Shown here: positions 2,753-18,598 of the stretch, one piece after another
Numbering within the stretch: position 1 is the first letter of the stretch
Layout: each line of letters begins with the position of its first letter
Assembly: GCA_018335195.1 (NCBI GenBank)
Contig: JAGXKN010000034.1
Span: 1 to 33,583, forward strand
Length of the DNA stretch: 33,583 nt
DNA from: Desulfobacterales bacterium
GTDB taxonomy: Bacteria > Desulfobacterota > Desulfobacteria > Desulfobacterales > Desulfosalsimonadaceae
Direction of reading: 5' to 3'
Made by a program: the position numbers and the translations under genes
The notes under the pieces: model-generated
Database searches by the model: none
What the model was told of the DNA's origin: nothing
What the model saw: the letters and a program-made list of their open reading frames with translations, nothing else

Positions 2753-3625
2753 ATGAGTTTAAAAAAGAAGCTGTCAGCCGCCGAATTCGTGGTGCTCGCC
2801 GAGATGAATACCCCCAAGGGGGTGGATATCTCGGAACTCGTGACCAACGCCAGACGTTTAAAAGGACGGGTCGATGGCGTGTTGATTCCGGATATGGACA
2901 ACGGCGTCATGCGGATGAGTGCCCTGGGCGGAGGTGCGTTAATGCGCAGGGAAGGCCTGGAAACCGTGGTTCACGTTTACGGCCGGGATAAAAACCGCAT
3001 GGCCCTGCAGGGCGATATCCTGGCGGCAAACGTGCTGGGGATCCAGCATCTGCTGGTGGCCCCGGCCGAGCCCATGGCCAACGGCGACCACCGGGATGCC
3101 GCGGTTGTGGACGATCTTGATGAATCCGGCATTCTGAAGATGATCCGCTCTTTGTCCGAAGGCGTGGACCTGGCCGGTTTTGAGCTTCGGGGTCTCCCGG
3201 AGTTCACGGTGGGATGTGCCATGGCGCCGGTGGCAGATGATGCCGCACTTGCCCGCGAAGTGGAAAACCTCGGCCAAAAGGTTGCCGCGGGCGCGCAGTA
3301 CATTGTGACGCCGCCGGTTTTTGATCTTGAAGCCTACGGCAAGATGCTCGAATCGCTCAAAGAGTTTGACGTCCCGGTGATCGCCACCGTGTTTCTGCTC
3401 AAAAACGTCGGCATGGCGCGATACATGTCCATTCACGAGCCCGGTTCCTGCATCTCCGAGGATATGATCCGGCGCATCCGCAAGGCGCCAGACCGGGAGG
3501 CGGAATGCATCCGGATGGCCGGAGAGGCGGCAGCAGAATTAAAAAAGATGGTCCAGGGCGTCAAGATTACCACACTGGGCTGGGAACACCGGCTGCCGGA
3601 TATCCTTTCGAGCGCGGGACTGTAG
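2753..3625 (+). CDS. Divergent MetF-family (methylenetetrahydrofolate reductase-like) protein
   Basis: This 290-residue protein has the length and TIM-barrel pattern of MetF, the FAD enzyme that interconverts methylene-THF and methyl-THF. ATG 2753 follows GAGGGATAATT, a good ribosome site. The family Glu is present in LAEMNTPKG (E17). The usual LxGD motif that supplies the flavin/folate-binding Asp reads LVAPAEP (A103-P107), and the TQ motif that supplies the folate-binding Gln reads VTPP, with P187 at the Gln position. The second MetF at 8032 keeps both. This copy therefore may bind a different pterin or C1 substrate, or serve as a non-catalytic partner. It is the first gene of the cluster, 78 bases before hdrA. 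The fold assignment is firm; the change of function is inferred from by-eye alignment. Confidence 0.75.
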   Translation: MSLKKKLSAAEFVVLAEMNTPKGVDISELVTNARRLKGRVDGVLIPDMDNGVMRMSALGGGALMRREGLETVVHVYGRDKNRMALQGDILAANVLGIQHLLVAPAEPMANGDHRDAAVVDDLDESGILKMIRSLSEGVDLAGFELRGLPEFTVGCAMAPVADDAALAREVENLGQKVAAGAQYIVTPPVFDLEAYGKMLESLKEFDVPVIATVFLLKNVGMARYMSIHEPGSCISEDMIRRIRKAPDREAECIRMAGEAAAELKKMVQGVKITTLGWEHRLPDILSSAGL

Positions 3626-3703
3626 GCGACCCGCCCGGGCGGATCATCCGCGTGCGGGTGCACGCAATGCGGCAAGCCAAATTATGCGATAAATGGGGAC
3701 CCC

Positions 3704-6700
3704 ATGCAAGAATACAATGATATCTATACCGAAGATCAAGGCAATCAGGCCGTGCTCGTGATCGGCGGGGGGATGGGGGGCATTCGTGCGGCCCTGGACC
3801 TGGCCGAATCGCGCAGGGATGTTGTGCTCATTGACAAGTCATATGCCATCGGCGGGCTCATGACCCAGCTGGACCGCACCTTTCCCACCAACAACTGCGA
3901 CTTGTGCACCATTTCGCCGCATCTCTCCGAAAGCGGCAGGCAGCTGCGCATGGAGCTCAAGCCCATGACCGTGGTTGAAAAGGTGGAAGGCGAGGCCGGC
4001 AACTTTCAGGTCACCGTCAAGCGCATGCCCCGTTACATTGATGTGGACAAGTGCACGGCATGTGGGGAATGCGCGGAAAAGTTCCCGGAATGGGTCCGGT
4101 TTACACCGGGCCTGGATCCCCGGGCGCCCACGTGCATGCGCTATCCCCAGGCAACACCCTATGCGTTTTCCATTGACGCGGAAAAAGTCACCGATTTTGA
4201 CGCCCTGCAGCAGGTGTGCAAGGCCGGGGCCATAGTTCCCGACGACTGCGAGAAAACCGAAACCCTGTCCGTGGCCTCGATTGTGCTTTCCACCGGCGGC
4301 GAGCTTTTTGATCCGTCGGTGCTGGATAATTTCGGGGGCGGAGAATACGCCAACGTGGTCACAGGGCTGCAATACGAGCGGATCATGTCCGCATCCGGCC
4401 CGACCCAGGGCAGTCTGGTCCGGCCATCGGACAACAAGCGCCCCCGGCGCGTGGCCTGGATCCAGTGCGTGGGCTCAAGGGGGATCAACCGAGCGGATGT
4501 GCCGTATTGTTCCAGTGTGTGCTGCATGTACGCGCTCAAGGAGGCCATTGTCACCCGGGAGCGCTTTGCCGACGACATTGAAACATCCATTTTTTACATG
4601 GACATGCGCACATTCGGCAAGGACTATGAATCCTACCTCAACCGGGCGGTGGACGAATACGGGGTCAACCTGATCCGGAGCCGGCCGCACTCGATAATCG
4701 AAAATCCGGAAACCGGGGACTTGTCCATTACGTACGCCACGGATGACGAGCTTTTTCATAAGACCGAGGTTTTTGACATGGTGGTGCTTTCCACCGGTTT
4801 TCGCATCAGTGCCGAGAACATGGAGCTGGCACGCCGCCTGGGCATTGACCTGAACGCGCACGGTTTTGCCAAAACCGGCGGTTTCGCCCCGGTGGCCACT
4901 TCCAGGCCCGGCATATACGTCTGCGGGGTCTGCGAAAGCCCCAAGGACATCCCGGAGACCATGATCCAGGCCTCGGCCGCAGCCGCCGCGGCCGGCAGCG
5001 ATACCCCCGTGTCCGGCGCTGCTGTCGAAGAAGAGGAAATCTTTGCGCCCGAGCGCGATGTTTCCGCAGAGCCGCCCAAAATCGGGGTGTTTGTATGCGA
5101 GTGCGGGGCCGAAATCGGCGGCGTGATCTCAGTGGAAAAATTGGTGGCGCAGGCCCGTGCCATTCCCGGCGTGGAGGTGGCTGAAGCCGTGGGTTACGGC
5201 TGCAGCGGTGATTCCATTTCCCATATTGAACAGCAGGTGGCCGGCCACGGCTTAAACCGGGTGGTTGTGGGCGGCTGTTCACCCCGGACCCATGAAATCA
5301 AGTTCCAGGACATGATGCGCAGGTGCGGGCTCAACAAGTACCTGGTGGACATCGTCAATCTACGGGACCAGGATACCTGGCCGCACATGAATCAGCCCGA
5401 AGCGGCCCAGGATAAGGCCTATAAGCTTGTGGAGATGGGCGCCCACGGGGTCAGCAAGGCACATCCCCTTGCCGAGCACACCCTGCCCATGAATCAGAAC
5501 GTGCTGGTGGTCGGCGGCGGCGTGGCCGGGATGAATTCCGCGCTGGTGCTGGCCGACCAGGGCTTCCGGGTCTACCTGGTGGAGCGCAACGCCGCACTCG
5601 GCGGCCTGGCCCGCAATATCCGGAAGACGCTCCAGGGAGAGGACGTGGGCGCATACATGGACGAGCTGATCGAAAGGACCGGGTCCCACGACAACATCCA
5701 GGTGCTGACCCGGTCGATCATCGTGGATCACGCGGGCATGCCCGGGCGTTACACAACCGGCCTGCAGACCGGCCCGCGCATGCATTACATGCAGATCGAG
5801 CACGGCGTCACCATTCTTGCAACCGGGGCCCTTGCCCACCGGCCGCCGCAGTATCTGCTTGGCGAACATGAAAGCGTGATGACCCAGCTGGACCTGGACG
5901 CGCAAATCGCGGATAATCCCGAATCCATTGAAAAACTCGAGCAGGTGGTGATGATTCAGTGCGTCGGCTCCCGGGAGCCGGGCAATCCCAATTGTTCGCG
6001 CATCTGCTGCCAGAGCGCCATCAAGAACGCGCTGCGGATGAAGGACATCAACCCGGATATGCAGATTTACGTGCTGTACCGGGATATCCGGACATACGGC
6101 TTTGATGAGGATTATTACCGGGAAGCCAGAAAACGCGGGATCAAGTTCATCCGGTATGAAACCGACAACCGGCCCGAAGTTCGCGACACCGGAGACGGCC
6201 TGGAAGTGGGCGTATATGACCCCATCCTGGGCAGAAACCTGGAAATCGCAGCAGACCGCGTGATTCTGAGTACCGGTTTTGCCGCAGACGATGAAACCAC
6301 AGAGGATCTGTCCGTGCTGTTTCATCTCACGCGCTCGGATGACGGATATTTCCTGGAGGATCATGTCAAACTGCGGCCAACGGACATGTCGGTCCGCGGC
6401 TTTTTCCTGGCGGGCACGGCCCATTCGCCCAAGTCCATCCGGGAAAGCATCACCCAGGGTCAGGCCGCCGCGGGCCGGGCCCGATCCCTTCTGACCAGCC
6501 GATTTATCAACCTGGGCGCTGCAGTGGCCAAGGTGGACGGAGATAAGTGCGCGGCCTGCCTGATATGCGTTCGGGCCTGTCCCTTTCATGTCCCCTATAT
6601 CAACGCCGAGGGCTATTCGGAAATCGACCCGGCCCTGTGCCACGGCTGCGGGACATGTGCGGCCGAGTGCCCGGCCCGCGCCATACAGCTCATGCAGTAT

Positions 6701-6754
6701 GAAGACGATCATATTCTGGCCAAACTCGACGGTCTGTTTGAGAGGATGAACTGA
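3704..6754 (+). CDS. hdrA: Double-length HdrA-like FAD/iron-sulfur electron-transfer subunit
   Basis: HdrA is the flavin subunit of heterodisulfide reductase-type complexes and the site of flavin-based electron bifurcation. This 1016-residue protein holds two modules. Module 1 (about 15-440) has an FAD Rossmann motif GGGMGG (21-26) and the HdrA hallmark TFPTNNCDLC. Its ferredoxin motifs are damaged: C117, C120 and C123 are followed by F127 instead of the fourth Cys, and the second motif keeps only C172. Module 2 starts with the HdrA N-terminal domain (CEC at 465-467), then FAD motif GGGVAG (604-609), and ends with two intact [4Fe-4S] motifs (C949/952/955/959 and C979/982/985/989). An acidic, Ala-rich linker lies near 440-460. 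The stop overlaps the mvhD start as TGATG, implying translational coupling. Similar proteins are QmoA/QmoB; the MvhD and MetV neighbours favour an HdrA of a MetFV complex. Confidence 0.9.
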   Translation: MQEYNDIYTEDQGNQAVLVIGGGMGGIRAALDLAESRRDVVLIDKSYAIGGLMTQLDRTFPTNNCDLCTISPHLSESGRQLRMELKPMTVVEKVEGEAGNFQVTVKRMPRYIDVDKCTACGECAEKFPEWVRFTPGLDPRAPTCMRYPQATPYAFSIDAEKVTDFDALQQVCKAGAIVPDDCEKTETLSVASIVLSTGGELFDPSVLDNFGGGEYANVVTGLQYERIMSASGPTQGSLVRPSDNKRPRRVAWIQCVGSRGINRADVPYCSSVCCMYALKEAIVTRERFADDIETSIFYMDMRTFGKDYESYLNRAVDEYGVNLIRSRPHSIIENPETGDLSITYATDDELFHKTEVFDMVVLSTGFRISAENMELARRLGIDLNAHGFAKTGGFAPVATSRPGIYVCGVCESPKDIPETMIQASAAAAAAGSDTPVSGAAVEEEEIFAPERDVSAEPPKIGVFVCECGAEIGGVISVEKLVAQARAIPGVEVAEAVGYGCSGDSISHIEQQVAGHGLNRVVVGGCSPRTHEIKFQDMMRRCGLNKYLVDIVNLRDQDTWPHMNQPEAAQDKAYKLVEMGAHGVSKAHPLAEHTLPMNQNVLVVGGGVAGMNSALVLADQGFRVYLVERNAALGGLARNIRKTLQGEDVGAYMDELIERTGSHDNIQVLTRSIIVDHAGMPGRYTTGLQTGPRMHYMQIEHGVTILATGALAHRPPQYLLGEHESVMTQLDLDAQIADNPESIEKLEQVVMIQCVGSREPGNPNCSRICCQSAIKNALRMKDINPDMQIYVLYRDIRTYGFDEDYYREARKRGIKFIRYETDNRPEVRDTGDGLEVGVYDPILGRNLEIAADRVILSTGFAADDETTEDLSVLFHLTRSDDGYFLEDHVKLRPTDMSVRGFFLAGTAHSPKSIRESITQGQAAAGRARSLLTSRFINLGAAVAKVDGDKCAACLICVRACPFHVPYINAEGYSEIDPALCHGCGTCAAECPARAIQLMQYEDDHILAKLDGLFERMN

Positions 6755-7200
6755 TGACAAAAGCATTTGAACCGGAAATCGTTGCGTTCTGCTGCCATTA
6801 CTGCGCCTATACGGCCGCGGACATGGCCGGCAGCAAACGGCTTTCCTACCCGGCCAACGTGAAGATTATCCGCGTGCCATGCACCGGAAAGGTGGACCCC
6901 ATCCACATTATGAAGGCCCTGCACAAGGGCGCTGACGGCGTTTATGTCGCCGGCTGCCTGGAAGGCGACTGCCATTTCAAGACCGGCAATATCCGGGCGG
7001 CCCACCGGGTCCGCCGCGTGCAGGCGCTGCTCGAGGAGATCGGATGGGACAGCCGGCGGGTGGAAATGATTACCATGTCTGCGGGCATGGGAGAGCGTTT
7101 TGCGCAGACCGCCCGCGAATTTACGGAAAAGATCCGCGAGCTCGGCCCCAGCCCGGTTTCCCGGGCTGGCCAGGAGGCCGGCCGGCAGGCGGTGAGTTAA
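6754..7200 (+). CDS. mvhD: MvhD-type [2Fe-2S] electron-transfer subunit
   Basis: MvhD passes electrons between HdrA and a partner dehydrogenase or hydrogenase. The 148-residue protein carries the family cysteines in order: FCCHYC (C13, C14, C17), PCTGKVD (C43) and GCLEGDCHF (C68, C73), which ligate one [2Fe-2S] cluster. ATG 6754 shares its first base with the hdrA stop codon. No Mvh or other hydrogenase gene is in the window, so its donor is more likely MetF/MetV or another cytoplasmic oxidoreductase. A perfect hairpin follows the stop codon. Confidence 0.93.
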   Translation: MTKAFEPEIVAFCCHYCAYTAADMAGSKRLSYPANVKIIRVPCTGKVDPIHIMKALHKGADGVYVAGCLEGDCHFKTGNIRAAHRVRRVQALLEEIGWDSRRVEMITMSAGMGERFAQTAREFTEKIRELGPSPVSRAGQEAGRQAVS

Positions 7201-7218
7201 TCACTGAAATATGACCAG

Positions 7219-7242
7219 CCTGTAAAAAGTCCTTTTTACAGG
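7219..7242. repeat. Perfect hairpin after mvhD
   Basis: CCTGTAAAAAG (7219-7229) and CTTTTTACAGG (7232-7242) are exact inverted copies separated by two bases. It could end or attenuate transcription between mvhD and metV, although the stem is not GC-rich and no clean T-run follows. Its AAAAAGTCC portion is also the inverse of GGACTTTTT at 7325-7333, so the pair may mark the ends of a small repeat element of about 110 bases. Confidence 0.6.
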
Positions 7243-7247
7243 CAGTG

Positions 7248-7276
7248 TTAAGTTTTAAGTGATTAAGTGGTTAAGT
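7248..7276 (+). repeat. Four TTAAGT direct repeats
   Basis: TTAAGT occurs at 7248, 7255, 7263 and 7271, at intervals of 7, 8 and 8 bases, in the gap between mvhD and metV. Regular short direct repeats of this kind can be binding arrays for a regulator, but they may equally be part of a small intergenic repeat element. Confidence 0.5.
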
Positions 7277-7324
7277 AAAATCGGAAACTTATCATTTTAT
7301 TGTCTGGCGATTATAATGGTTTCA

Positions 7325-7346
7325 GGACTTTTTGCGAAACCGTCAA
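7325..7346 (+). repeat. 22-base intergenic repeat, copy A
   Basis: GGACTTTTTGCGAAACCGTC plus AA here matches 31068-31089 at 20 of 22 positions. In both places it lies a short distance before the ribosome site of a plus-strand gene (metV here, a PNPOx-like gene there). It is probably the end of a dispersed intergenic element. Confidence 0.6.
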
Positions 7347-7366
7347 ATATAACTTGGAGATAAAAC

Positions 7367-8035
7367 ATGATTACGGCTGTACGAAAACCCATGGAAGAAA
7401 TTATTGCGTGTGTGGCGCCTTATGACCGGATTCTTCTGGTCGGGTGCAACGAGTGCGTCAGTGTCTGCTCCGTGGGGGGGCGAAAAGAAGTGGCGCTTCT
7501 GGCCTCGGCCCTGCAGATGCATTTTCTCAAGCAGGGCAAAACAATGGACATCAAGGAGATTACCCTGGAGCGCCAGTGTGACCCGGAATACGTCGAGGAG
7601 CTGGTCAATCTTACGGACGGCGCAGATGCCATCCTGTCCATGGCCTGCGGATGCGGCGTGCAGACGATTGCGGGGCGCTACCGGGAAAAGCCCGTATTCC
7701 CGGCGGTAAACACCACCTTCATGGGCGCATCCGAGCGGCAGGGCGTATGGTCCGAGCGCTGTCAGGGGTGCGGCGACTGCGTGCTGGGCATCACGGGGGG
7801 CATCTGCCCCATTGCCCGCTGTTCCAAACGGCTGATGAACGGGCCTTGCGGCGGTTCCTCAAACGGGAAATGCGAAATTGATCCCAATATTGACTGCGCG
7901 TGGCAGTTGATCTGGGACCGGTTAAAAGCCCTGGGCCTGGAAAGACGCATTGAAGACATCATGGAAGCCAAGGACTGGCGAACCAGCCGGGACGGCGGCC
8001 CCCGGAAAATTGTAAGAGAGGATCTGGCATCATGA
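7367..8035 (+). CDS. metV: MetV, cysteine-rich partner of methylenetetrahydrofolate reductase
   Basis: MetV (the 'MTHFR C-terminal' family) forms a heteromeric reductase with MetF in acetogens and related anaerobes, supplying iron-sulfur and zinc sites for electron transfer to or from the MetF flavin. The 222-residue protein has an N-terminal group C27, C30, C34 and a C-terminal group C132, C135, C138, C147, C152, C161 and C169, with the family stretch NGPCGG. ATG 7367 follows TTGGAGATAAAAC. Its stop overlaps the next start as ATGA, so MetV and MetF are probably made in equal amounts. The order hdrA-mvhD-metV-metF matches the Moorella-type MetFV-HdrABC-MvhD complex. Confidence 0.92.
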   Translation: MITAVRKPMEEIIACVAPYDRILLVGCNECVSVCSVGGRKEVALLASALQMHFLKQGKTMDIKEITLERQCDPEYVEELVNLTDGADAILSMACGCGVQTIAGRYREKPVFPAVNTTFMGASERQGVWSERCQGCGDCVLGITGGICPIARCSKRLMNGPCGGSSNGKCEIDPNIDCAWQLIWDRLKALGLERRIEDIMEAKDWRTSRDGGPRKIVREDLAS

Positions 8036-8955
8036 AAACCGAAAGCAGACTGGAGAAAGTACTGGCCTCGGGTGCGCTGGCGGTCACCTCGGAGTGCGGC
8101 CCGCCCAGGGGCGTCGTGCCCGATAAGGTCAAGGAGAAGGCGGAACTGTTGCGGGGATATGTGGATGCCGTTAACGTGACAGACAACCAGACGGCCATGG
8201 TGCGGATGTCGAGCTGGGCCGCAAGCATCCTGCTCAAACAGATCGGAATTGATCCGGTCTTCCAGATGGTGACCCGGGACCGCAACCGGCTGGCCATGCA
8301 GGCAGACATCATCGGGGCCTATTCCCACGGGGTCAACACCATGCTGTGCCTGTCGGGCGATCATCCGCATTTCGGCGACCATCCCATGGCCGCCAATGTC
8401 TATGACCTGGACTCGGTCCAGTTGATTCAGGCAGTGGTCAAAATGCGGGATGAAGGCAAGTTCCAGGGCGGAAAGGATATTGATCATCCGCCGAAAATGT
8501 TCGTGGGCGCGGCTGCCAATCCTTTTGCCGATCCGTTTGAACTGCGCGTAATGCGGCTTGCAAAAAAGGTCCGCGCGGGTGTAGATTTCATTCAGACCCA
8601 GTGCATCTACAACCTGGACAAGTTTGCCCGGTGGATGGACGGGGTGTGCGAGCGGGGCCTGCACGAGAAGGTCCACATCCTGGCCGGCATCACTCCCATG
8701 AAATCGGCCGGGATGGCCCGGTACATGAAAAACCGGGTGCCGGGCATGGACGTGCCCGATGACATTGTCAAGCGCATGGAGGGTGTGCCCAAGGAAAAGC
8801 AGCCCGAAGAGGGCATTAAGATTGCTGTGGAATCCATAGAGCGCTTAAAAGAAATGGAAGGCGTGCATGGTTTCCATATCATGGCCATCGAGTGGGAGGA
8901 GAAAGTTCCTGAAATCGTGGAAAAAGCGGGTCTGCTGCCCCGCCCCGAAATTTAG
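8032..8955 (+). CDS. metF: Methylenetetrahydrofolate reductase MetF
   Basis: MetF interconverts 5,10-methylene-THF and 5-methyl-THF through FAD. In a complete oxidiser the reaction runs from methyl-THF, in an acetogen toward it. The 307-residue protein keeps the catalytic-site pattern: E21 in TSECGPP, D110 in LSGDHP and Q190 in QTQCIYN. It overlaps metV by four bases (ATGA). No NADH-binding extension is visible, which agrees with electrons passing through MetV, MvhD and HdrA. It is the canonical copy; the paralogue at 2753 is altered at the Asp and Gln positions. Confidence 0.94.
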   Translation: MKTESRLEKVLASGALAVTSECGPPRGVVPDKVKEKAELLRGYVDAVNVTDNQTAMVRMSSWAASILLKQIGIDPVFQMVTRDRNRLAMQADIIGAYSHGVNTMLCLSGDHPHFGDHPMAANVYDLDSVQLIQAVVKMRDEGKFQGGKDIDHPPKMFVGAAANPFADPFELRVMRLAKKVRAGVDFIQTQCIYNLDKFARWMDGVCERGLHEKVHILAGITPMKSAGMARYMKNRVPGMDVPDDIVKRMEGVPKEKQPEEGIKIAVESIERLKEMEGVHGFHIMAIEWEEKVPEIVEKAGLLPRPEI

Positions 8956-9411: not shown

Positions 9412-9435
9412 CCTCCGCGCCGGGACGTGATTTCC

Positions 9436-10449
9436 ATGCAGATGAACGGTCTACGCGTGAGCGACCGGCTTGTCCGGCTGGAGCAGGTTTTTACCGACCA
9501 GTGGGATCCGCGGCTTGTTCCCTTGTACCGGAAGCTTGCCGCAGACCGGATCAATATTTCGTTTTTATACCTGAATTACCTGGTGCCGGCCAAGCAGATC
9601 AGCTGCCTGGTTGAGCCCGAAACCCTGACCCGGCTGACCCGGGATTCGGTGCCGGGCGGCGTCGAACCCGTAAAGCCGGATGCGTCCGCCGCCGCAGGCC
9701 TGGTCTCGGCGTTTCCCCATCGTTTCGACCCGGCGGCCATAGGCACCATGCTTCGCGCCGTGGCTCAAACGGAAATCGAGTGGCATTGCATGGCAAGCTC
9801 GGGCTCCATGCTGGCAATTGCCACGGATTATGCGACACAAAAACAGGCGGTCGATGCCGTTGCCGGCGGCATCGGACTTCCGGAAAACCATGTTCCGGTT
9901 TTCCCGGGTCAGGACTATGATCCCATTGCCAGGTCACTGAAGACCGCCCCGGAAACCGTGGCCCGGTATGTGGAGTCTAAAATCAAGACTTACGGCATCC
10001 AGGTTTATACCGGGCTGACACTCTGCAGCCTCCGGTTACGAGCAGATGCGCTGGAAAAGTGGAGCCGGGCCGTTTCGGAAAAAGGATGCCGGTTTTTTTA
10101 CGCCTGTGCGGCGCCGATGGAAAATGAGCGGGTGAACCTGGAGGTGCTGCTGGATGCCGGAGAACCGGAAACGCGGGATTTTGATATTGCCGCGGATACA
10201 CCCTGCGCTGATACGAGCCCGGACAATTCGGCGACAGTCCGCGAAAAAGCAGAAATGATCTGTTTTCACGGTCCCCATTTCGGCGATCGCTACGGCATTG
10301 CAGACAAGGCCCTGGGCCGGATCGCACAGGCGGGCGTGCCGGTATGGCTGGCCGGATGCGTGGGTGCGACCGTTTCCATCGTCCTGCCGCCGCATGCGGC
10401 GAAAAAGGCAACAAAAGCCCTTTCCGCGGCTTTTGAGATGCCGGATTAA
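9436..10449 (+). CDS. ACT-domain-like protein of unknown function
   Basis: I do not recognise a named family for the whole protein (337 residues from ATG 9436; GTG 9427 is an alternative start). It appears built of about four ACT-like segments, the small ligand-binding fold used by aspartokinase and other amino-acid-regulated enzymes. The clearest is the last, beginning MICFHGPHFGDRYGIADKAL and ending in an SIVLPP strand and an AFEMP terminus, very like an aspartokinase ACT pair. Earlier segments around 15-60, 100-150 and 185-240 show the same strand-helix rhythm (ISCLVEPE, MLAIATD, CSLRLRAD). No enzyme domain, signal peptide or membrane segment is visible. Its position between a receiver protein and a kinase suggests a ligand-sensing or adaptor role. 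That role is inference. Confidence 0.7.
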   Translation: MQMNGLRVSDRLVRLEQVFTDQWDPRLVPLYRKLAADRINISFLYLNYLVPAKQISCLVEPETLTRLTRDSVPGGVEPVKPDASAAAGLVSAFPHRFDPAAIGTMLRAVAQTEIEWHCMASSGSMLAIATDYATQKQAVDAVAGGIGLPENHVPVFPGQDYDPIARSLKTAPETVARYVESKIKTYGIQVYTGLTLCSLRLRADALEKWSRAVSEKGCRFFYACAAPMENERVNLEVLLDAGEPETRDFDIAADTPCADTSPDNSATVREKAEMICFHGPHFGDRYGIADKALGRIAQAGVPVWLAGCVGATVSIVLPPHAAKKATKALSAAFEMPD

Positions 10450-13546: not shown

Positions 13547-13612
13547 ATACATATGCCTGCCTGTGCAGGTACCAAACCCGATTGATTGAATTCAACATTT
13601 GGAGGAGACAAT

Positions 13613-14449
13613 ATGTTCAGGATCGTCAGACGAGAAACCATGGCCGATGACACGATCATTTTAAATGAAATCGAGGCGCCGAAGATCGCGGCCAAGGCAA
13701 AACCCGGCCAGTTTGTGATCTTAAAGGCCAATGAAACCGGCGAGCGCATTCCGTTGACCATTTCGGACCTGGATGCCGAGCGCGGCACCATTACCGTGAT
13801 CTACATGGTTGTGGGCAAATCCACCGCCCTGTTTAAGACCCTGGCCGAAGGCGACGGATACCAGAATGTGATCGGCCCGCTGGGCAAGCCCACGGATATT
13901 GAAAAACTCGGCAGGGTCGTGTGCGTGGGCGGGGGCACGGGCATTGCCGTGCTGTTTCCCATCACGAGAGCTTTTAAGGAAGCCGGAAACGAGGTCATCA
14001 GCATAATCGGCGCCAGAAACAAGGACCTGCTCATACTGGAGGAGAAAATGGGCGCGGTCTCGGATGCACTGCACGTGTGCACTGATGACGGTTCCTACGG
14101 GCGAAAGGGTTTTGTCACCGAGGTGCTAAAAGAGGTCCTGGACAACAACAAGGTGGATCAGGTGGTGGCCATCGGCCCGGTGCCCATGATGAAGTTCGTT
14201 TCCAAAATGACGTATGACTACAATGTAAAGACGATGGTGAGCCTGAATCCGATCATGATCGACGGAACAGGCATGTGCGGCGGATGCCGCGTTTCGGTGG
14301 GCGATGAAACCAAGTTTGCATGTGTCGACGGACCGGAGTTTGACGGCCACAAGGTGGATTACGACAACCTAATGCAGCGGCTCCGGGCGTATGAAGAAGA
14401 TGAGAAAAAAGCATACGAAGAATACTGCAAAGCGCAGGGATACAAATAA
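13613..14449 (+). CDS. nfnA: NfnA / sulfide dehydrogenase beta subunit (FAD, [2Fe-2S])
   Basis: NfnA is the small subunit of NADH-dependent reduced ferredoxin:NADP+ oxidoreductase, which bifurcates electrons between NADPH, NAD+ and ferredoxin. The 278-residue protein has an FAD-binding barrel (RIPLTISD), a nucleotide-binding GGGTGIA (107-113) and the [2Fe-2S] site D217 with MCGGC (C222, C225) and C237. Aspartate as a fourth ligand is typical of NfnA and helps separate it from dihydroorotate dehydrogenase PyrK. ATG 13613 follows a strong GGAGGAG. nfnB follows after 32 bases. It was first named sulfide dehydrogenase (SudB) in Pyrococcus. Confidence 0.92.
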   Translation: MFRIVRRETMADDTIILNEIEAPKIAAKAKPGQFVILKANETGERIPLTISDLDAERGTITVIYMVVGKSTALFKTLAEGDGYQNVIGPLGKPTDIEKLGRVVCVGGGTGIAVLFPITRAFKEAGNEVISIIGARNKDLLILEEKMGAVSDALHVCTDDGSYGRKGFVTEVLKEVLDNNKVDQVVAIGPVPMMKFVSKMTYDYNVKTMVSLNPIMIDGTGMCGGCRVSVGDETKFACVDGPEFDGHKVDYDNLMQRLRAYEEDEKKAYEEYCKAQGYK

Positions 14450-14481
14450 GGACGGCAACCGGATAAGCGACGGAGGGAAAC

Positions 14482-15894
14482 ATGACGGAAAAGACGAGCA
14501 AAAAAGAAAAGATTCCACGCCAGCCGATGCCCGAGCAGGCTCCGGATTTGCGCAGCCGCAATTTTGATGAGGTTCCCCTGGGATACAGCCGGGAAACTGC
14601 CGTAAAAGAGGCAGAGCGCTGCCTGCAATGCAAGAAACCCGCCTGCGTCAACGGCTGCCCGGTGCAGGTTGATATTCCCGGCTTTGTCAAGCAGATCGCG
14701 CAGGGCGATGTTGAAAGCGCCATCCAGACCATTTGGGGGAAAAACAGTCTGCCGGCCATTTGCGGACGGGTCTGCCCCCAGGAAATTCAGTGCGAGGGCG
14801 AGTGCATCCTGGGCAGAAAAGACGAACCCCTGGCCATCGGGAATCTGGAGCGGTTTGCAGCGGATTTTGCCCGGGAGCAGGGCGGCTGTGAATTTCCCGA
14901 AAAAGCCCCGCCCACGGGCAAAAAGGTGGCCATTGTCGGATCCGGTCCCTCCGGGCTGACCGTGGCCAGCGACTTGCTGTTAAAAGGCCATGATGTGACC
15001 CTGTTTGAAGCCTTTCATCAGCCCGGCGGGGTGCTGGTCTACGGCATACCGGAGTTTCGGCTGCCAAAGGAGATTGTGTCATGTGAAATTGCCGGACTGG
15101 AAGCACTCGGCCTCCGCATTGAGTGCGACAATGTGGTCGGACGGACCGTGAGCCTAGATGAACTGTTTGAAGAAGGATATGATGCCATCTATATCGGGGT
15201 GGGGGCCGGGCTGCCCAAATTTCTCAATATTCCCGGTGAAAACCTGATCGGCATTTATACGGCCAATGAATATCTGACCCGGGCCAACCTGATGAAGGCC
15301 TACCGGTTCCCGGAGTATGATACCCCGCTTGTCAAGGGGAAAAACGTTGCGGTGCTGGGCGCGGGCAATGTGGCCATGGATTCGGCCCGGACGGCCATGC
15401 GCCTGGGTGCCGAGCGCGTACGTATCGTTTACCGCCGGTCCAGGGAGGAAATGCCGGCCCGGGCCGCGGAAATCCACCATGCCGAAGAAGAAGGCATTGA
15501 ATTTTATCTGCTGACCAACCCGATCCGGTTTATCGGGGATGAAAACGGCCGGGTGACCCAGATGGCGTGCCTGAAAATGGAACTGGGCGAACCCGACGAA
15601 TCTGGCCGCAGAAGACCCGTACCCGTGGAGGGCTCCGAGTTCATCCTGGACTGTGATCTTGCCGTGGTCGCGGTGGGCGCCGGGGCCAATCCCGTGCTGA
15701 CCCAGTCCGATCCCGAGCTCGAGCTCACCTCCAGAGGATATATCGCTGCGGACCCGAAAACCGGCAAAACCACCAAGAAAGGCGTCTGGGCAGGCGGCGA
15801 CATCGTCACCGGCCAGGCCACGGTCATCCTGGCCATGGGCGCGGGCAGAGACGCGGCAGACTCTATACACGATTACCTGCGGATCGGCTGGTAA
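14482..15894 (+). CDS. nfnB: NfnB / sulfide dehydrogenase alpha subunit (glutamate synthase small-chain-like)
   Basis: NfnB carries the bifurcating FAD and two [4Fe-4S] clusters and exchanges electrons with NADPH and ferredoxin. The 470-residue protein shows cluster motif 1 (C47, C50, C55, C59), motif 2 (C94, C98, C104, C108), FAD motif GSGPSG (153-158) and NADPH motif GAGNVA (293-298), ending with the family WAGGDIVTG stretch. Length and order fit NfnB; the adjacent NfnA and absence of a glutamate synthase large subunit argue against GltD. ATG 14482 follows CGGAGGG. A strong hairpin lies downstream. In this cluster it would link the ferredoxin pool to NADPH. Confidence 0.93.
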   Translation: MTEKTSKKEKIPRQPMPEQAPDLRSRNFDEVPLGYSRETAVKEAERCLQCKKPACVNGCPVQVDIPGFVKQIAQGDVESAIQTIWGKNSLPAICGRVCPQEIQCEGECILGRKDEPLAIGNLERFAADFAREQGGCEFPEKAPPTGKKVAIVGSGPSGLTVASDLLLKGHDVTLFEAFHQPGGVLVYGIPEFRLPKEIVSCEIAGLEALGLRIECDNVVGRTVSLDELFEEGYDAIYIGVGAGLPKFLNIPGENLIGIYTANEYLTRANLMKAYRFPEYDTPLVKGKNVAVLGAGNVAMDSARTAMRLGAERVRIVYRRSREEMPARAAEIHHAEEEGIEFYLLTNPIRFIGDENGRVTQMACLKMELGEPDESGRRRPVPVEGSEFILDCDLAVVAVGAGANPVLTQSDPELELTSRGYIAADPKTGKTTKKGVWAGGDIVTGQATVILAMGAGRDAADSIHDYLRIGW

Positions 15895-16068: not shown

Positions 16069-17739
16069 GTGTTTTTTACATATACATTTTACGCGGCATG
16101 CCTGGTTTGCGTGCTTGGCATGATCTACAAGCTTCGGCCCTGGTTTTCATACCGGATCGGACCGCCGGAACCGGGATATTCGGCATGGCAGCGCATCTGG
16201 CACGCCCTGCGGGCCGTGGTGCGGACCGTTTTCAGCTTCCGGATTTTCAGGCTCGCCTTCAGCCTGGTATATGACGTCATCCTGCAGGCACACATTCTGC
16301 GAAAAGACCCGCTCAGGTGGGGCATGCACTTTTTTATTTTTGCCGGGTTCATGGCGCTGCTGTTGATGCACGCCCTGGAGGACCAGGTTTCCCGCGAGCT
16401 GTTTTCCGGCTATCATTCAACGGTCAACCCGTTTATGTTTCTGCGCAACCTGTTCGGCCTGCTCGTACTTGTCGGCCTGGGCATTGCCATATACCGCAGG
16501 CGGGCCAGCCGGACCTTGAGGCGGATCACCACCCGGGCCGACCGGATTGCCATTGCCCTGCTGCTGGTGATCATGACCTCCGGATTTCTGCTCGAGGGCG
16601 CAAAGATCATTTCGCCCTCGGTATTCGGGTCCATGCTCCGGGATTATTCGGGTTATTCCATGGCCTCGGAAGACAGTGATCCGATCAAGACCTACTGGCA
16701 GGCGCATTACGGCGTGGCTTTTCCCGGCGAAGACCTGCCCGAGACCCCGGAGATGATGGAGCAGGGCAGGTTCATGCATGTCAATTACTGCGCCTATTGC
16801 CATGATCGGCCGGAGTGGGCGTTTGTCTCCTATCCCGCCTCCAGGGTGATGTATCCGGCGGCCGGATTGCTCGACCGCTTCCGGATGGACGTGATTCTGT
16901 GGTACTTGCATTTCCTGGCCTGTTTTATCGGGCTGGCCCTGCTGCCGTTTACCAAGTTTTTCCATGTGATCACAACGCCCCTGAGCCTGCTGGTCAAATC
17001 CGCGGGCCTGCCGGCCCGGGGGGAAACCGCCGAGCGCCTCAACCGCCGGGCCATGGAGCTGGATGCATGCACCAGCTGCGGCACCTGCAGCTTGCACTGC
17101 TCCGTGGCGCCGATGTTTGCCAGAATTGAAAACCGGTATATTCTCCCATCTGAACGTTTGTCGGCCTTGAAAAATCTTGCCGCCGGAAAGACTATGACGC
17201 CGGGCCAGCTTCAGCAAATCGTCGAAGGCGGGCAGATATGTACAAAGTGCTATCGCTGCACCCGGCTTTGCCCCGCAGGCATCGATCTGCAGGATATCTG
17301 GCTGGCTGCTGAAGCCCAGTTCGCACAACAGGGATACAACCCGGCGGCCAGATGGATTCCCGATTCATTTGCCCGGGATCTGCCGTCTGCACACCAGAAA
17401 CTCTCAAGCGATGCCGATCTCCTGGGGGGCCTGGCAGCGGTTTCGGTTCATCAGGAGGACTTTTCCGGGTGTTTGAAATGCAAGACCTGCACAAATGCGT
17501 GTCCTGTGGTGGATGCCGCCGATGACCCACTGGGCGATCTGGATCTGTTGCCGCACCAGATGATGCATGCCCTGAGCCTGGGGATGCGGGATGAAGTGCT
17601 GAGCTCGCGCATGATCTGGGCGTGTGCCACGTGCTACCTGTGCCAGGAGCACTGCCCCCAGGGTGTCAGAATTACAGACATTTTTTACGGCCTGAAAAAT
17701 CTTGCCTACAGGCAGACAAACAAGTATCCGCCGAATTAA
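16069..17739 (+). CDS. NarI/DsrM-like membrane cytochrome b fused to HdrC-type iron-sulfur domain, with a CxxCH haem c motif
   Basis: This 556-residue protein probably exchanges electrons between the quinone pool and a cytoplasmic HdrB-type site. Five hydrophobic segments lie near 4-20, 86-103, 128-143, 160-178 and 275-297. Basic residues after segments 1 and 3 (RRR, LRR) place those loops inside. The loop between segments 4 and 5 would therefore be periplasmic, and it contains CAYCH (C241, C244, H245), a covalent haem c motif. The C-terminal half has four [4Fe-4S] motifs starting at C334, C391, C468 and C519, on the cytoplasmic side. The start is GTG 16069, eight bases after AGGGAA. hdrB follows after 16 bases. 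Related architectures are DsrM, HdrE and HdrC; this exact combination is not one I can name. Confidence 0.8.
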   Translation: MFFTYTFYAACLVCVLGMIYKLRPWFSYRIGPPEPGYSAWQRIWHALRAVVRTVFSFRIFRLAFSLVYDVILQAHILRKDPLRWGMHFFIFAGFMALLLMHALEDQVSRELFSGYHSTVNPFMFLRNLFGLLVLVGLGIAIYRRRASRTLRRITTRADRIAIALLLVIMTSGFLLEGAKIISPSVFGSMLRDYSGYSMASEDSDPIKTYWQAHYGVAFPGEDLPETPEMMEQGRFMHVNYCAYCHDRPEWAFVSYPASRVMYPAAGLLDRFRMDVILWYLHFLACFIGLALLPFTKFFHVITTPLSLLVKSAGLPARGETAERLNRRAMELDACTSCGTCSLHCSVAPMFARIENRYILPSERLSALKNLAAGKTMTPGQLQQIVEGGQICTKCYRCTRLCPAGIDLQDIWLAAEAQFAQQGYNPAARWIPDSFARDLPSAHQKLSSDADLLGGLAAVSVHQEDFSGCLKCKTCTNACPVVDAADDPLGDLDLLPHQMMHALSLGMRDEVLSSRMIWACATCYLCQEHCPQGVRITDIFYGLKNLAYRQTNKYPPN

Positions 17740-17755
17740 AAGGAATGAATCAGAT

Positions 17756-18598
17756 ATGACGCTGGCGTTTTTTCCGGGCTGCAAGATCCCGTATTTTTGT
17801 GCCCATTACGGGACCTCCGCAAAGGCGGTTTTAAAGTCGCTGGGGGTCGATTTTGCTGAACCGGAGTTCAACTGCTGCGGTTATCCCATGCGCAATTTCG
17901 ACCTGAAGGCCTTTGTTCTCCAGTCGGCGCGCAATTTTGCTATCGCCGAGCAGCGCGGCATGGATATTGTCACGCCGTGTAAATGCTGCTTCGGCAGCAT
18001 GGCCCACGCCCGGCACATACTCGATGAGAATCACGTGCTGCGCGCGGAGATCAATCAGATGCTTGCAGCCGAGAAGCGAAAATACACAGGGGTCTCCCGG
18101 GTCCGCCATTTGCTATCCGTGCTTGCCGAGGACGTGGGCGCTGCGCAAATCGGCGCGCATGTCCGCAAGCCGTACCACGGAATGAAAGTCGCGGCACATT
18201 ACGGCTGCCATGCACTGCGACCCAGTTCAGTGGTGCAATTTGACAATCCCTTTTCGCCCACCATATTTGAAAGCTTGATCCGGGTGACCGGTGCCGAATG
18301 TGTGGACTGGGAAAAGCGCCTGGAATGCTGCGGCCAGCCGCTGGCCGAAGGCAGCCCCCAGCTTTCGCGCAGGCTGGCTGAGCGCAAAATTACCAGTGCC
18401 GTGGATTCCGGGGCGGATCTCATATGTTCGGCATGCACCTACTGCCAGATTCAGTTTGCAGCCATGCCTGAAACCGCAATTCCCAACATTTTGTATCCCC
18501 AGCTGCTGGGACTGAGCATGGGACTTTCCGGCCGCAGGCTCGGACTGGACCGCACCACTGTCACACGGGAAAAACTGGAGCGGTTTATCGCAGCATAA
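17756..18598 (+). CDS. hdrB: HdrB-type heterodisulfide reductase subunit with two CCG domains
   Basis: HdrB holds two non-cubane [4Fe-4S] clusters that reduce disulfides in methanogens; bacterial homologues act on unknown thiols or as electron carriers. The 280-residue protein has two complete CCG motifs: C9, C40-C41 and C75/C78, then C151, C191-C192 and C224/C227. ATG 17756 follows AAAAGGAATG, 16 bases behind the membrane protein gene, so the pair likely forms one complex like DsrMK or HdrDE. Its final 14 bases overlap the end of nadA on the other strand. The substrate is unknown: a MetF/HdrA partner or a DsrC-like protein are alternatives. Confidence 0.9.
   Translation: MTLAFFPGCKIPYFCAHYGTSAKAVLKSLGVDFAEPEFNCCGYPMRNFDLKAFVLQSARNFAIAEQRGMDIVTPCKCCFGSMAHARHILDENHVLRAEINQMLAAEKRKYTGVSRVRHLLSVLAEDVGAAQIGAHVRKPYHGMKVAAHYGCHALRPSSVVQFDNPFSPTIFESLIRVTGAECVDWEKRLECCGQPLAEGSPQLSRRLAERKITSAVDSGADLICSACTYCQIQFAAMPETAIPNILYPQLLGLSMGLSGRRLGLDRTTVTREKLERFIAA

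Follow-up and report, generated by a model that had tools for sequence, protein, structure and literature searches.

The 33,583-nucleotide stretch of DNA considered here, termed the window, is contig JAGXKN010000034.1 (positions 1 to 33,583, forward strand) of the Desulfobacterales bacterium assembly GCA_018335195.1. It encodes a membrane protein of the HdrF type, in which a NarI-like cytochrome b, a predicted haem c attachment motif and four iron-sulfur (FeS) motifs are joined in one polypeptide, followed by a gene for a HdrB-like protein. The HdrF family is real, conserved and widespread and carries this haem c motif; it is not a new kind of machine. The exchange of partners by HdrF-HdrB looks new, no description of it having been found in the literature searched. 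The explanation favoured, with fair probability, is that HdrF-HdrB takes the place of HdrBC as a membrane-integral module and connects flavo-dehydrogenases of the cytosol with menaquinone and/or a periplasmic cytochrome, with HdrA-MvhD-MetV-MetF as the most likely input in the window genome. The parts of the pair are as follows.

16069..17739, plus strand: HdrF-type protein, GTG start, 556 residues (PF02665, Fer4 matches, invariant residues and model); NarI-like cytochrome b at residues 1-311, CxxCH within the predicted periplasmic loop 182-272, FeS pair 1 at C334 and C391, HdrC-like FeS pair 2 at C468 and C519.
16789..16803, plus strand: CAYCH, residues 241-245, the predicted haem c attachment site (sequence; 106/106 aligned rows).
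17756..18598, plus strand: HdrB-like protein, 280 residues, two CCG domains (two stretches of PF02754; TIGR03288).

The original prediction, made from the sequence alone, had described CAYCH at residues 241-245, four C-x2-C-x2-C-x3-C motifs and a two-CCG HdrB 16 bases downstream, and the window bears out all three. In the ORF (open reading frame) translation the motif counts are correct, the FeS motifs starting at C334, C391, C468 and C519. The TAA codon of HdrF ends at 17739 and the HdrB ATG lies at 17756, a gap of 16 bases. The chance expectation of a CxxCH, from shuffling the composition of the protein, is 0.023. The NarI family model PF02665 scores 32.9 bits (cut-off 22.9), and several Pfam 4Fe-4S dicluster matches are present. 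The HdrC model TIGR03290 (E 1.3e-21) remains below its equivalog threshold, at 77.1 against 160. The HdrF polypeptide stops at residue 556 after the FeS part; both CCG domains belong to the next gene, whose product contains two full C-x30-39-CC-x33-34-CxxC motifs and matches TIGR03288 (E 1.9e-58) at 198 against a cut-off of 345.15, again below the equivalog threshold.

An identity as a plain NarI-type protein or DsrM was rejected. The DsrM equivalog NF038037 is absent among the 25 NCBIfam families listed for the window HdrF. Three other NarI-domain ORFs of the window genome served as controls and have neither CxxCH nor FeS motifs; one of these is DsrM itself (NF038037, 525 bits against a cut-off of 300). 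DsrM of the DsrMKJOP complex is likewise a NarI-like cytochrome b paired with Hdr-like proteins, and its lack of both motifs in this genome is as first proposed.

The name HdrF dates from a 2009 study of Desulfobacterium autotrophicum HRM2 (PMC2702500). In the relevant passages of that paper it denotes proteins with membrane helices and HdrC- and HdrB-like domains, in one or two genes, clustered with the genes of electron-providing proteins. The same passages place hdrF1 and hdrF2 with glpAB and hdrF3 with etfAB, speculate on proton pumping, and contain no mention of a haem c. Similar to the HRM2 proteins, the window protein has a NarI domain, an HdrC-like FeS pair and an adjacent HdrB gene, which places it within HdrF by domains. 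It differs in that the pair is not beside GlpAB, and the 2009 name also spans the etfAB-linked type. The HRM2 genome contains two ORFs with a CxxCH and four FeS motifs that are homologous to the window HdrF. One has GlpA-GlpB upstream and HdrB downstream; the other (L170) has 628 residues. A third, EtfD-like ORF of 689 residues has two FeS motifs, a CCG motif and no CxxCH, and is on our reading the etfAB-linked HdrF3.

Relatives were sought in 192 genomes of the class (E <= 1e-60) and 395 of the phylum (E <= 1e-50). HdrF matches were found in 86 and 49 genomes, respectively, the window genome being counted in each. Identities in the class search were 34-50% apart from the window itself, and some matches were not full-length. 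All 29 relatives extracted from this search have a single CxxCH at the same position and four FeS motifs. Loci were taken as the neighbourhoods from the class-search genomes together with the best 80 of at least 543 places in a collection of 84,980 species, a choice that skews the sample to close relatives of the window. In total, 121 HdrF ORFs were gathered, of which 110 are distinct, and 106 rows entered the alignment and tree. Four fragments were excluded: the two halves of the L066 copy, L068 and L087. The CxxCH is present in one L066 half and in L068, and absent from the other half and from the L087 piece. The L066 copy (L066:7863-9466, genome G171) lies beside MetV and is split in two by a run of N, so that its intactness cannot be judged.

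Across the alignment, C241, C244, H245, H87, H101, H281, H299 and M189 are identical in 106/106 rows, and the 16 FeS cysteines are conserved in 105-106. Loss of the CxxCH in close homologues was looked for, and no aligned row has lost it; its middle residues vary freely while the motif itself is exact throughout. In 10 of the 110 distinct rows an extra CxxCH occurs, but it coincides in part with the second FeS motif, on the cytoplasmic side, and was not counted as a second haem c. Three Spirochaetes metagenome genomes (L083, L129, L137) have the order GlpA-GlpB-HdrF-HdrB and form one clade within the HdrF family, by which the family reaches beyond the sulfate-reducer phylum. No viral relatives of HdrF were found in one scan of viral contigs. 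Among the 101 HdrF loci that extend 900 bp or more downstream, HdrF is immediately followed by HdrB in 98, the exceptions being L087, L122 and L150; the original prediction had called for such a count of neighbours.

The AlphaFold2 model of the window HdrF (predicted local distance difference test score, pLDDT, 78.4; predicted template modelling score, pTM, 0.74) contains five membrane-length helices, at residues 2-26, 81-101, 123-146, 156-181 and 273-290, and these fit membrane spans; the original prediction had noted five hydrophobic segments. Loop limits were set from this model and net charge per 100 residues was averaged over the 106 rows: the putative cytoplasmic loops have +8.6, +24.3 and +3.3 and the putative periplasmic loops -9.0 and -9.4, the last being the CAYCH loop. 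By this charge bias and the model, CAYCH should be periplasmic and the FeS clusters cytoplasmic, in agreement with the positive-inside pattern originally invoked. The same sidedness is indicated because the FeS part is C-terminal to the last helix and the partner HdrB is soluble.

His pairs are present in helices 2 and 5 (H87, H101, H281, H299), as for NarI-like dihaem cytochrome b, and these residues are candidate ligands of two b haems. The 18-residue spacing of H281 and H299 in helix 5 is the same as that of H187 and H205 in NarI. A covalent haem c is probably carried by CAYCH. Within loop 182-272, Met189 is the sole Met, His or Lys besides H245 above 85% conservation, and it is taken on that basis as a candidate distal ligand. 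It is highly improbable that CAYCH is instead a metal-binding or structural motif without haem c. Such a role is left some room by a distal ligand guessed from conservation and a haem c that is predicted only, but the CxxCH is exact around free middle residues in every aligned row, on the side where c haems attach, and the genome encodes proteins for cytochrome c assembly.

Among solved structures, the best fold match by a wide margin is EtfD of Mycobacterium smegmatis (9ojn; Z 24.4 over 336 aligned residues, Foldseek E 3.4e-06). HdrC matches residues 453-552 (Z 10.4, 31% identity) and NarI residues 1-319 (Z of about 10); Protein Data Bank matches that ranked below EtfD, HdrC, NarI and the ferredoxin folds of SDHB/CODH type were disregarded, being judged unrelated membrane or helical proteins. 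The relevant parts of PMC13083937 describe EtfD as a wire of flavin, two CCG-bound clusters, two cubane clusters, one b haem and menaquinone, with both CCG domains in a single chain. Like EtfD/EMO, the window HdrF has a NarI-like bundle and then an FeS domain of the EtfD fold; it differs from EtfD in an extra His pair, an extra FeS pair, the CxxCH and a CCG part on the separate HdrB gene. HdrF could accordingly be a quinone reductase of the EtfD kind only, in which electrons from a cytosolic partner reduce menaquinone in the membrane and the haem c has a structural role or adjusts the quinone site, passing no electrons to the periplasm. This has in its favour that the best solved match ends at menaquinone (PMC13083937, in part), and it is a minority possibility of some weight; the two His pairs and the invariant CxxCH point to a route as far as the outer face, which is missing from the one-b-haem EtfD.

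The favoured explanation, a membrane-integral stand-in for HdrBC, draws on the genes that surround HdrF-HdrB across the family. Neighbours were labelled by BLAST against our own protein clusters, within each of which Pfam and NCBIfam named only some members, and the names Flx, Nfn and Mvh are partly our reading of clusters. The electron-input modules adjoining HdrF-HdrB are HdrA-MvhD-MetV-MetF, NuoEF-HdrA, HdrA-Flx, HdrA-Mvh and, without HdrA, GlpAB. Partners were counted in the 63 of 110 distinct loci whose flanks extend to at least 4.5 kb on the downstream and 1.2 kb on the upstream side. In 30 of these HdrA lies downstream of HdrF (six with NuoE, four with MetF upstream, one with NfnAB upstream), in 17 GlpB lies upstream, in four NuoE lies downstream with no HdrA within 6 kb, and in one NfnAB is the only partner. 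One GlpA-GlpB pair scores above the NCBIfam equivalog cut-offs, and NuoE- and NuoF-like proteins were identified. For the HdrA-like partners the best NCBIfam model was HdrA2, below cut-off, in 4/4 tested, and the Mvh label rests on an FrhB-like protein and a 20-kDa NADH-dehydrogenase-type subunit. The run HdrF-HdrB-HdrA-MvhD then MetV-MetF occurs on a single strand in four distinct loci (L043, L099, L136, L145), with an intervening NfnB-like ORF in L099; L066 is a fifth, rearranged locus.

On the HdrF tree the partner labels require 34 changes, against a mean of 66.3 when shuffled, and none of 200 shuffles was as low. A fixed partner for each clade was rejected: the Glp label fits with one change, yet MetVF requires five for five rows and NuoEF ten for 16. 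HdrF-HdrB is therefore read as a partner-switching module, its labels being clustered on the tree yet often changing.

These neighbourhoods alter one part of the original prediction, which held that a wire could run from a periplasmic haem through the membrane to a cytoplasmic HdrB site. The wire is supported by conservation, loop charge, the model and the controls. Because HdrA-type modules or GlpAB are frequent neighbours of HdrF-HdrB, HdrB is probably not the end point of the wire; an end in cytosolic dehydrogenases is more likely, and its direction may be outward rather than inward. The interpretation is thus partly supported, and its frame has changed since the family was already named HdrF.

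The genes of the window that bear on its own partner are as follows.

2753..3625, plus strand: MetF-like paralogue heading the HdrA-MvhD-MetV-MetF cluster (PF02219, E 2.9e-17).
3704..6754, plus strand: HdrA-like flavoprotein, candidate partner (HdrA2 model, E 6.2e-245, under cut-off).
6754..7200, plus strand: MvhD/FlpD-like iron-sulfur protein (PF02662, E 1.3e-52).
7367..8035, plus strand: MetV-like protein (PF12225, E 1.5e-38; the name MetV is our reading).
8032..8955, plus strand: MetF, methylenetetrahydrofolate reductase (PF02219, E 3.2e-39).
13586..15894, plus strand: NfnA-like (13586-14449) and NfnB-like (14482-15894) proteins (PRK06222 and gltA models over cut-off; the name Nfn is our reading).

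The HdrA-MvhD-MetV-MetF cluster (2753-8955) lies 7 kb upstream of HdrF and is without HdrB or HdrC. The window order is MetF-like paralogue, HdrA, MvhD, MetV, MetF, regulators, NfnAB and HdrF-HdrB, which is the order of L136 with HdrF-HdrB shifted downstream. The nearest relative of the window HdrA is that of L043 (61% identity), a locus with a contiguous HdrF-MetVF cluster. A MetF-like gene directly precedes HdrF in L136 and L145, comparable to the MetF-like paralogue of the window. A 340-residue ORF (9427-10449), with a response regulator on one side and two PAS histidine kinases on the other, has no Pfam or NCBIfam match at E <= 0.001. The genome further encodes CODH/ACS, DsrA, DsrC, c3-type cytochromes and two cytochrome c assembly proteins. 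Its other HdrB relatives are found in a HdrABC set on contig C20, a pair on C10 and a 463-residue ORF on C71. On contig C32 (L224:6881-13417) there is a second run of NfnB-like/HdrA, MvhD, MetV and MetF; the 19 kb examined there contain no match to HdrB or HdrC.

Several observations weigh against the stand-in role or against the input assigned to it here. No scored partner is present in 11 of the 63 loci, and MetVF is a rare partner, with 5 of 106 tree rows and five changes needed. The fork that joins the HdrA of the window to that of L043 has a Shimodaira-Hasegawa-like approximate likelihood ratio test (SH-aLRT) value of 88, below the 95 mark. The window HdrF itself falls in an eight-row clade (SH-aLRT 96) of Desulfobacter-type copies without scored partners, so its own partner could differ. 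The HdrABC on contig C20 is canonical, and its HdrBC could serve the window HdrA.

NfnAB may also be considered as the partner in the window organism, the complex then joining NAD(P)H or ferredoxin to the membrane. NfnAB-like genes lie directly upstream of HdrF in the window and in L078, a relative of 90-91% identity, and in L120 NfnAB stands before HdrF-HdrB-HdrA. This assignment is nonetheless improbable, given the 174 bases between NfnB and HdrF in the window and the presence of NfnAB upstream of HdrF in only 3 of the 110 distinct loci; on the latter count it was also rejected as the usual partner of the family.

Under the stand-in explanation, the most likely chain would be flavin (HdrA or GlpAB), HdrB, four [4Fe-4S] clusters, haem b, haem b, and haem c and/or menaquinone. 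Cytosolic flavoenzymes, either HdrA complexes or GlpAB directly, would exchange electrons with the inferred complex through HdrB and the four clusters. The two b haems of the NarI-like bundle would carry them across the membrane, and at the periplasmic face they would meet menaquinone and/or the mono-haem c (His245, perhaps Met189), from which a periplasmic cytochrome could accept them. In the window genome the most likely input would be the cluster 7 kb upstream, which would tie the oxidation of methyl-tetrahydrofolate (methyl-THF), or the reduction of methylene-THF, to the membrane.

The path may run in either direction. The potential of menaquinone is near -74 mV, and a His/Met haem c usually has a higher potential still. 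That of the methylene-THF/methyl-THF couple is quoted as -200 mV (PMC9430772, in part), and outward flow to menaquinone would hence be downhill. In the reverse case, the direction of the original prediction and as for TmcC-TmcB or DsrMK, a periplasmic cytochrome would donate to the haem c and HdrB would reduce a cytosolic disulfide such as that of DsrC. Two full HdrB cysteine motifs, by our own pattern, are present in the window and in 76 of 97 neighbouring HdrB, the genome encodes DsrC and c3-type cytochromes, and the nearest clade of the window HdrF has no dehydrogenase partner. This inward wire is nevertheless unlikely: a cytosolic donor is present beside GlpAB, NuoEF or MetVF, and 20 of the 97 HdrB have only one full motif (one further protein has three). 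GlpAB clusters also occur in the Spirochaetes metagenome genomes.

Related gene sets have been reported elsewhere. The relevant passages of PMC9430772 describe HdrCBA-MvhD-MetVF of Sporomusa ovata and Moorella, with the same HdrA-MvhD-MetV-MetF genes as here; the Sporomusa complex is partly at the membrane and its membrane-integral partner is reported as unidentified. In those complexes HdrC and HdrB are normal subunits, whereas HdrF provides HdrC within one polypeptide together with a cytochrome b that bears a haem c motif. Passages of PMC10553843 report, for HotSeep-1, HdrA with a haem-c/CCG protein proposed as a cytochrome c oxidoreductase and, for Seep-SRB1g, HdrABC next to metF. The HotSeep-1 haem c and CCG are said to share one protein, unlike HdrF-HdrB, and the two are likened by description only. 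The HdrF-type protein of the window is not described in the relevant passages of PMC5109826, PMC8691401 and PMC13416013, and the 'HdrF' of PMC8691401 is a different Geobacter subunit. A haem c in a HdrF-like protein is named in no title or abstract found on the architecture or the methyl-THF link, which is weak evidence of novelty as coverage of subscription journals and bioRxiv was sparse.

In anaerobes, the connection of methyl-THF oxidation and other HdrA-linked reactions to the membrane is unsettled. The union of HdrC, cytochrome b and a probable periplasmic haem c in one gene product makes the membrane link directly testable. A broader proposal, advanced tentatively, is that HdrF-HdrB acts as a general transmembrane outlet for HdrA-type, possibly bifurcating, complexes, with one haem-c-tipped module swapped among methyl-THF, NADH, Flx, hydrogenase and glycerol-3-phosphate inputs. 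If true, the methyl branch of the Wood-Ljungdahl pathway in sulfate reducers would be coupled directly to the quinone pool or the periplasm, with HdrF-HdrB in the position for which the S. ovata study reports no identified membrane partner.

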